From Hyperoplus lanceolatus (taxonomy: Eukaryota; Chordata; Actinopteri; Uranoscopiformes; Ammodytidae): 64,000 nucleotides of DNA. A model generated the notes under the pieces. The model saw nothing but the letters and a program-made list of their open reading frames with translations, had not been told where the DNA came from and searched no databases. The translations under genes and the position numbers were made by a program. Location of the stretch: positions 18,978,501 through 19,042,500 of the forward strand of contig CM049408.1 of assembly GCA_026929865.2 (NCBI GenBank), read 5' to 3'. Of the stretch, positions 6,530 to 42,128 are shown piece after piece (position 1 is the stretch's first letter; each line of letters begins with the position of its first letter).

Positions 6530-6703
6530 TCACAGCTCATCCTTGCCTGCTCCAATGGGGCAGGACACGCCGGTGCCTTTGAGGCCGCAGTAGCCTTTAG
6601 GTACTTTCTTCAGGTATTGCTGGTGCTGGTCTTCAGCGTAGTAAAATGGCTGTCCCTCCAGGATCTCTGTAGTGATGGGTCCGTAGCCTTTTTTCTCCAA
6701 CTC
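6530..6703 (-). CDS. msra: msra exon 6: resolving cysteines and C-terminal KDEL
   Basis: This last coding exon encodes residues 196-252 after the acceptor TTTTCTTTTAG. It carries GYGPITTEI, the conserved [13 protein letters not shown], and the C-terminal [13 protein letters not shown] with C234 and C243, which pass the disulfide on after C88 is oxidised. The protein ends PIGAGKDEL then TGA. Mammalian MSRA ends with a short basic tail (VGIKK). KDEL is the canonical ER retrieval signal recognised by KDEL receptors. The codons AAG GAT GAG CTG are unambiguous in frame with the cysteine motif. Confidence 0.96.

Positions 6704-42128: not shown

Follow-up and report, generated by a model that had tools for sequence, protein, structure and literature searches.

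A 64,000-nt stretch of Hyperoplus lanceolatus DNA (contig CM049408.1, positions 18,978,501 to 19,042,500; hereafter the window) carries what is very probably a second vertebrate gene for methionine sulfoxide reductase A (MsrA), one whose product would serve as a methionine-S-sulfoxide reductase in the lumen of the endoplasmic reticulum (ER). According to passages of PMC6316033 and PMC7475093, MsrB3A is the sole Msr enzyme of the mammalian ER, and MsrA is found in mitochondria, cytosol, nucleus and late endosomes; with MsrB3A only, half of the oxidised methionines in the mammalian ER would go unrepaired, or an unknown epimerase would be needed (passages of PMC6488974 and PMC6316033). MsrA directed to the ER of mammalian cells raises their resistance to oxidative and ER stress (work cited in an excerpt of PMC6316033), and the two signals of MsrB3 reroute MsrA to the ER (work cited in an excerpt of PMC7475093). 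A word and phrase search of the open-licence literature returned, among the matches listed, no paper on a natural ER-addressed animal MsrA.

The gene occupies 35.6 kb of the minus strand (42128-6530). Its six exons (Table 1) are separated by five introns with GT..AG at all ends and join into a coding sequence of 759 nt, stop codon included, for a complete MsrA of 252 residues. Pfam family PF01625 matches residues 81-234 (E = 5.1e-61; 205.8 bits against a curated cut-off of 23.7). The nearest chain in the PDB is 1fva (E = 1e-91), and 6agv, 2l90 and 1fvg are the other nearest solved chains; all four are named peptide methionine sulfoxide reductase. Cys88, Cys234 and Cys243 are present in the alignment to 1fva, and by analogy with the family the first is the catalytic residue and the other two are the resolving pair.

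Table 1. Exons of the MsrA gene and a possible alternative first exon in the window
Feature	Position	Strand	Remarks
Exon 1	41945..42128	-	ATG, polar n-region, apolar core, A-X-A site and M37, which opens the MTDKTVLP block; direct reading
Possible alternative first exon, without signal peptide	38762..38886	-	Similar to predicted isoform P0074 (Salarias) at the N-terminus; GTGAGA donor next
Exon 2	36012..36080	-	N-P-T at residue 69; most clade A rows have an N-glycosylation sequon there
Exon 3	35623..35742	-	GCFWG active site with catalytic Cys88
Exon 4	31980..32084	-	
Exon 5	15882..15988	-	
Exon 6	6530..6703	-	Resolving Cys234 and Cys243, then PIGAG, KDEL (6533-6544) and the stop TGA (6530-6532)

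An earlier, sequence-only reading of the window had described a complete MsrA with a strong start codon, an apolar core and an A-X-A site in exon 1, and a KDEL directly following the resolving-cysteine block, and direct reading bears out this description at both ends. The ATG of exon 1 has a strong context, within GTCGCCATGG; the fifth codon upstream is an in-frame stop (42143), with no in-frame ATG in between. It opens a putative signal peptide, read from the sequence, in which an n-region containing R5 and K6 precedes the apolar core and the A-X-A site, and to which the hydropathy fits. Similar N-termini occur in rows found by protein search. At the other end, the tetrapeptide KDEL is the very last of the protein.

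Three protein searches, each of which scored the best 8000 candidates by shared words and listed 120, yielded 233 different proteins. All counts given here refer to listed rows, each a cluster at 90% identity, rather than to species, and some species contribute several isoforms. After 15 of 235 rows with incomplete cores were dropped, a quick tree of the remaining 220 separated 113 rows that include the window protein (clade B) from a second group of 105 (clade A), with two outgroup rows. In a more careful tree of 92 of the 220 rows, the window's group comprised 68 rows with support of 100/99. Human MSRA falls in clade A, together with sequences from other tetrapods, gar and a sturgeon and with fish proteins of mitochondrial type, whose starts resemble MVSSSRLRLVWRHFVNSRMGDMASK and whose tails resemble KKA, KTKA or LKN. 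Clade B contains, besides the window gene, three reptile rows and ray-finned fish that range from bichir and sturgeon to the spiny-rayed fish; some annotations call its gene 'msrab' or 'MsrA 1'. The window gene thus groups with clade B, not with MSRA and the fish mitochondrial-type msra, and by this placement it is a second MsrA paralogue rather than the fish copy of mammalian MSRA.

The duplication is likely older than the split between fish and tetrapods; we say only likely because an approximately unbiased (AU) test did not reject placing the reptile rows with tetrapod clade A (P = 0.18). When two distant outgroup rows were included in the careful tree, clade A did not form one side of a branch. 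As annotated, the three reptile rows (P0231-P0233; turtle, snake and lizard) lack both the signal peptide and KDEL.

Compared with mammalian MSRA, the window protein shares PF01625, the catalytic cysteine in GCFWG and two C-terminal resolving cysteines, and its gene has six exons, the number that a passage of PMC1431549 gives for the human and mouse genes. Mammalian MSRA differs in belonging to clade A, in its presequence and MG start, and in a basic tail such as IKK with no KDEL; it exists in mitochondrial and cytosolic forms and in a myristoylated late-endosomal form. A search of the same genome found, among the matches listed, only one other MsrA locus, on contig C20, whose exon 1 reads MVSSSRIRLIWRHFTNSRMGD... 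and whose tail is PMGIKNKA, with no KDEL. Judged by these ends, as the gene is outside the tree, it appears to be a clade-A-like msra of mitochondrial type. We therefore rejected the possibility of a single, retargeted fish msra, since the window gene lies in clade B and a separate clade-A-like gene is present on C20. The proposal of the sequence-only reading that this fish gene makes an ER-lumenal MsrA stands as the best reading of the sequence evidence, with the correction that the gene is a second paralogue.

Both ends recur across clade B. Tails in -EL were found in 80 of the 113 listed clade B rows versus none of 104 clade A rows; 72 of the 80 fit PS00014 and 60 are KDEL. We scored a row as having an N-terminal extension when ten or more residues precede its second Met, and as apolar when a 10-mer upstream of that Met has a mean Kyte-Doolittle value of at least 1.9, a cut-off set after the values were seen. 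Five rows which the second-Met rule had missed (P0104, P0099, P0009, P0028 and P0078) were moved to the apolar class by hand. Among rows with an extension, an apolar 10-mer is present in 50 of 53 in clade B versus 6 of 80 in clade A. Fifty-one listed clade B rows, the window protein included, combine an apolar N-terminus with an -EL tail. That a random apolar exon should have met a coincidental KDEL in one species, which the sequence-only reading had already judged improbable, is a negligible prospect given that both features recur in the 50 other rows, among them sturgeon, Arapaima, tarpon, carp, catfish, salmon and spiny-rayed fish.

The two ends are conserved in different ways. Across 54 apolar rows (the window protein included, P0026 excluded), entropy at the last four positions is 0.13-0.83 bit, and positions -5 to -9 vary at 2.1-2.8 bit. 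Charged residues make up 2 of 490 positions in the apolar 10-mers of 49 clade B rows versus 85 of 800 in the clade A rows, and these clade B 10-mers share a mean of 21% of their letters, unaligned. Because they are nearly uncharged and yet share so few letters, it is apolarity, and not sequence, that is conserved at the clade B N-terminus. Nearly uncharged, diverged cores together with a near-fixed tail are what a signal peptide and a C-terminal address should look like. It is, by comparison, very unlikely that the N-terminus serves as a membrane anchor or mitochondrial presequence, with an incidental KDEL: R5 and K6 in the n-region, and the label 'mitochondrial' which annotators gave to many listed rows of clade B type, would fit such a role, but the scarcity of charge in the clade B cores and the restriction of -EL tails to clade B run counter to it, and the gene on C20 already has a clade-A mitochondrial-type start. 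A natural ER-addressed MsrA would also suggest that the common database name 'mitochondrial' is wrong for the clade B paralogue.

In the sturgeon row P0199, an apolar N-terminus is paired with the tail KEEL, and since this row branches outside the teleosts in the tree, the pair of signals is probably older than teleosts. The bichir row, also in clade B, combines an apolar start with the tail REDL, and P0072 (Danio aesculapii) an apolar start with RDEL. Open reading frames with both signals are also found in P0029 and P0068, on contigs of at most 2.7 kb and at most 1.4 kb respectively; as these are far shorter than the 35.6-kb gene in the window, P0029 and P0068 would appear to be spliced transcripts, provided that the gene has a similar length in those fish.

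On the ER-lumenal reading, the N-terminal signal peptide would direct the growing chain into the ER and be removed by cleavage close to the A-X-A/AADS site that immediately precedes Met37. With the GCFWG cysteine and the two resolving cysteines retained, the mature enzyme could reduce protein methionine-S-sulfoxide, a lumenal thiol donor could recycle it, and molecules that escape to the Golgi would be returned by the KDEL receptor, as the tail implies. The separate clade-A msra, to judge by its N-terminus, would serve mitochondria and cytosol.

A partner for the opposite epimer appears to be encoded in the same genome. A PF01641 search found a last exon on contig C22 (G000:C22:1633934-1634029, L020) that ends in ...SDEKTEL; by comparison with the human protein, we take this to be MsrB3, of which it is the probable last exon. 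The genome would then have ER-type tails on reductases for both epimers. The window enzyme would work beside MsrB3, and the ER could in this way repair either epimer of the sulfoxide. MSRB3A resembles the window protein in its address, pairing a signal peptide with a tail of KDEL type (KAEL in human, according to an excerpt of PMC7475093; KTEL here), but it is an ER methionine-R-sulfoxide reductase of the unrelated family PF01641 and acts on the opposite epimer. Plants likewise have Msr enzymes in the ER, with the family predicted in plastid, cytosol and ER; the proven ER member, however, is Arabidopsis MSRB3, an MSRB (both from passages of PMC6162775). Those passages mention no plant MsrA of the ER.

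The co-occurrence of both ends in orthologues, a check suggested with the sequence-only reading, also speaks for a pair of signals, in that 51 of 55 apolar clade B rows keep -EL. By comparison, all three clade B rows whose extension is not apolar (Nerophis, Syngnathus and Salarias) are without it (P = 0.0011 by Fisher's exact test, on rows that are not independent). If starts at the second Met are scored as having no signal peptide, -EL is found in 51 of 55 versus 13 of 35 rows (P = 2e-8 by Fisher's exact test), a contrast between related rows with uncertain annotated starts. We also compared independent lineages, leaving P0026, P0031 and P0044 out of these pair tests and of the sequon-tail tests below. 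Strict coding gave one pair on supported branches. Scoring second-Met starts as lacking a signal peptide gave six pairs, with a mean of 3.0 for co-loss, 0 against and 3 equal (median P = 0.25); with the PROSITE tail, the mean was 3.8 for (median P = 0.125). Co-loss of both ends on independent lineages thus points in the same direction but is not significant.

A further trait, not planned beforehand, agrees in part with the ER reading: the number of N-glycosylation sequons (N-X-S/T, where X is any residue but P) within the core of 184 columns. At least one core sequon is present in 103 of 105 clade A rows, 27 of 113 clade B rows and 8 of the 51 apolar -EL rows of clade B. The apolar -EL rows have 0.16 sequons per row versus 0.62 after shuffling, and clade A rows 1.24 versus 0.82. 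At residue 69, a sequon is carried by 83 of 105 clade A rows and by 16 clade B rows, and the motif there is NGNPTV in 60 of the 113 listed clade B rows. Mammalian MSRA, as a member of clade A, differs in this respect too: clade A mostly has the sequon at this position, whereas the window protein has N-P-T, its only N-X-S/T motif. Twelve of the 16 clade B rows with a sequon at residue 69 are without -EL and are mostly pipefishes; three with standard tails also carry it (P0115, P0072 and P0013). Among the 110 clade B rows with usable tails, 30 are without -EL, and 16 of these are also without a sequon. Within clade B, 14 of 30 rows without -EL have a sequon versus 13 of 80 with -EL (P = 0.002 by Fisher's exact test); on independent pairs, this link between sequon and tail is not significant (median P = 0.5). 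We regard the trait as supporting, not defining: ER-type rows have shed sequons from a domain of cytosolic or mitochondrial ancestry. Sequon loss together with tail fixation suggests past selection on an ER form.

There is nearly an even chance that the gene serves two locations, with a cytosolic product of equal or greater importance that would arise from alternative first exons or from M37 or M58 and in which KDEL would be silent; such a gene would be compatible with the ER-lumenal reading as best explanation. The annotated start lies at or beside the second Met in 32 of 113 clade B rows (13 with -EL and 19 without), and at another first exon or further downstream in 23 of the 113; given these annotated starts, many predicted clade B products would not enter the ER. 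The block at M37 is conserved, Met58 has a good ATG context, and mammalian MsrA and human MsrB3 are targeted via alternative first exons, according to a passage of PMC1431549. M37 itself, however, has a weak context compared with the strong one of M1, the second Met is absent from some apolar rows (P0009 and P0028 of Channa and P0104 of Arapaima), and the apparent selection on the ER form weighs against a lesser role for it.

The possible alternative first exon in Table 1 also favours two locations. Among the tblastn matches listed within the window for alternative first exons, only two stand out, the rest being mostly noise: that of P0074 at 38886-38821 (E = 7e-6) and that of predicted isoform P0084 (Labrus) at 38628-38545 (E = 6e-6), the latter downstream of the GTGAGA donor. 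The CpG ratio of the exon 1 region is at the 99th percentile within the window and that of the possible alternative exon region at the 91st, such high values as would be expected of promoters. Joined to exon 2, the 38886-38762 stretch has no in-frame ATG in the H. lanceolatus window. Because predicted products without a signal peptide are common and a possible alternative first exon is present, a cytosolic product is likely made as well.

Taken as a history, the ER-lumenal reading would have bony vertebrates inherit both a mitochondrial and cytosolic MsrA and an ER MsrA. Ray-finned fish would have kept the ER enzyme and repaired both epimers with MsrB3, and land vertebrates would have lost or retargeted it; pipefishes, gobies and blennies would have dropped the address independently, some regaining sequons. 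We consider this account about equally likely to be right or wrong. If it is true, loss or retargeting on land explains why the mammalian ER was left with MsrB3 alone. A natural ER-addressed fish MsrA would make the mammalian ER repair puzzle directly testable, and Danio and the natural loss lineages could be used.

Three minor observations were made along the way. Intron 4 of the window gene holds an open reading frame with an RVT_1 match (E = 1.6e-36; 24486-25862, minus strand), and three open stretches adjoin it as far as 28739, with no match for them in a Pfam search; the RVT_1 frame looks like part of a non-LTR retrotransposon. In P0018 (Dunckerocampus), a 35-residue stretch that matches exon 4 occurs twice in tandem, which may be an artefact of annotation or assembly. 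Within clade A, the predicted isoform P0184 (Lithobates) has an apolar stretch, MLITTFLSLGIILFHLFDVTYS, near its start and the tail IGLK, and is possibly a secreted form of MsrA.
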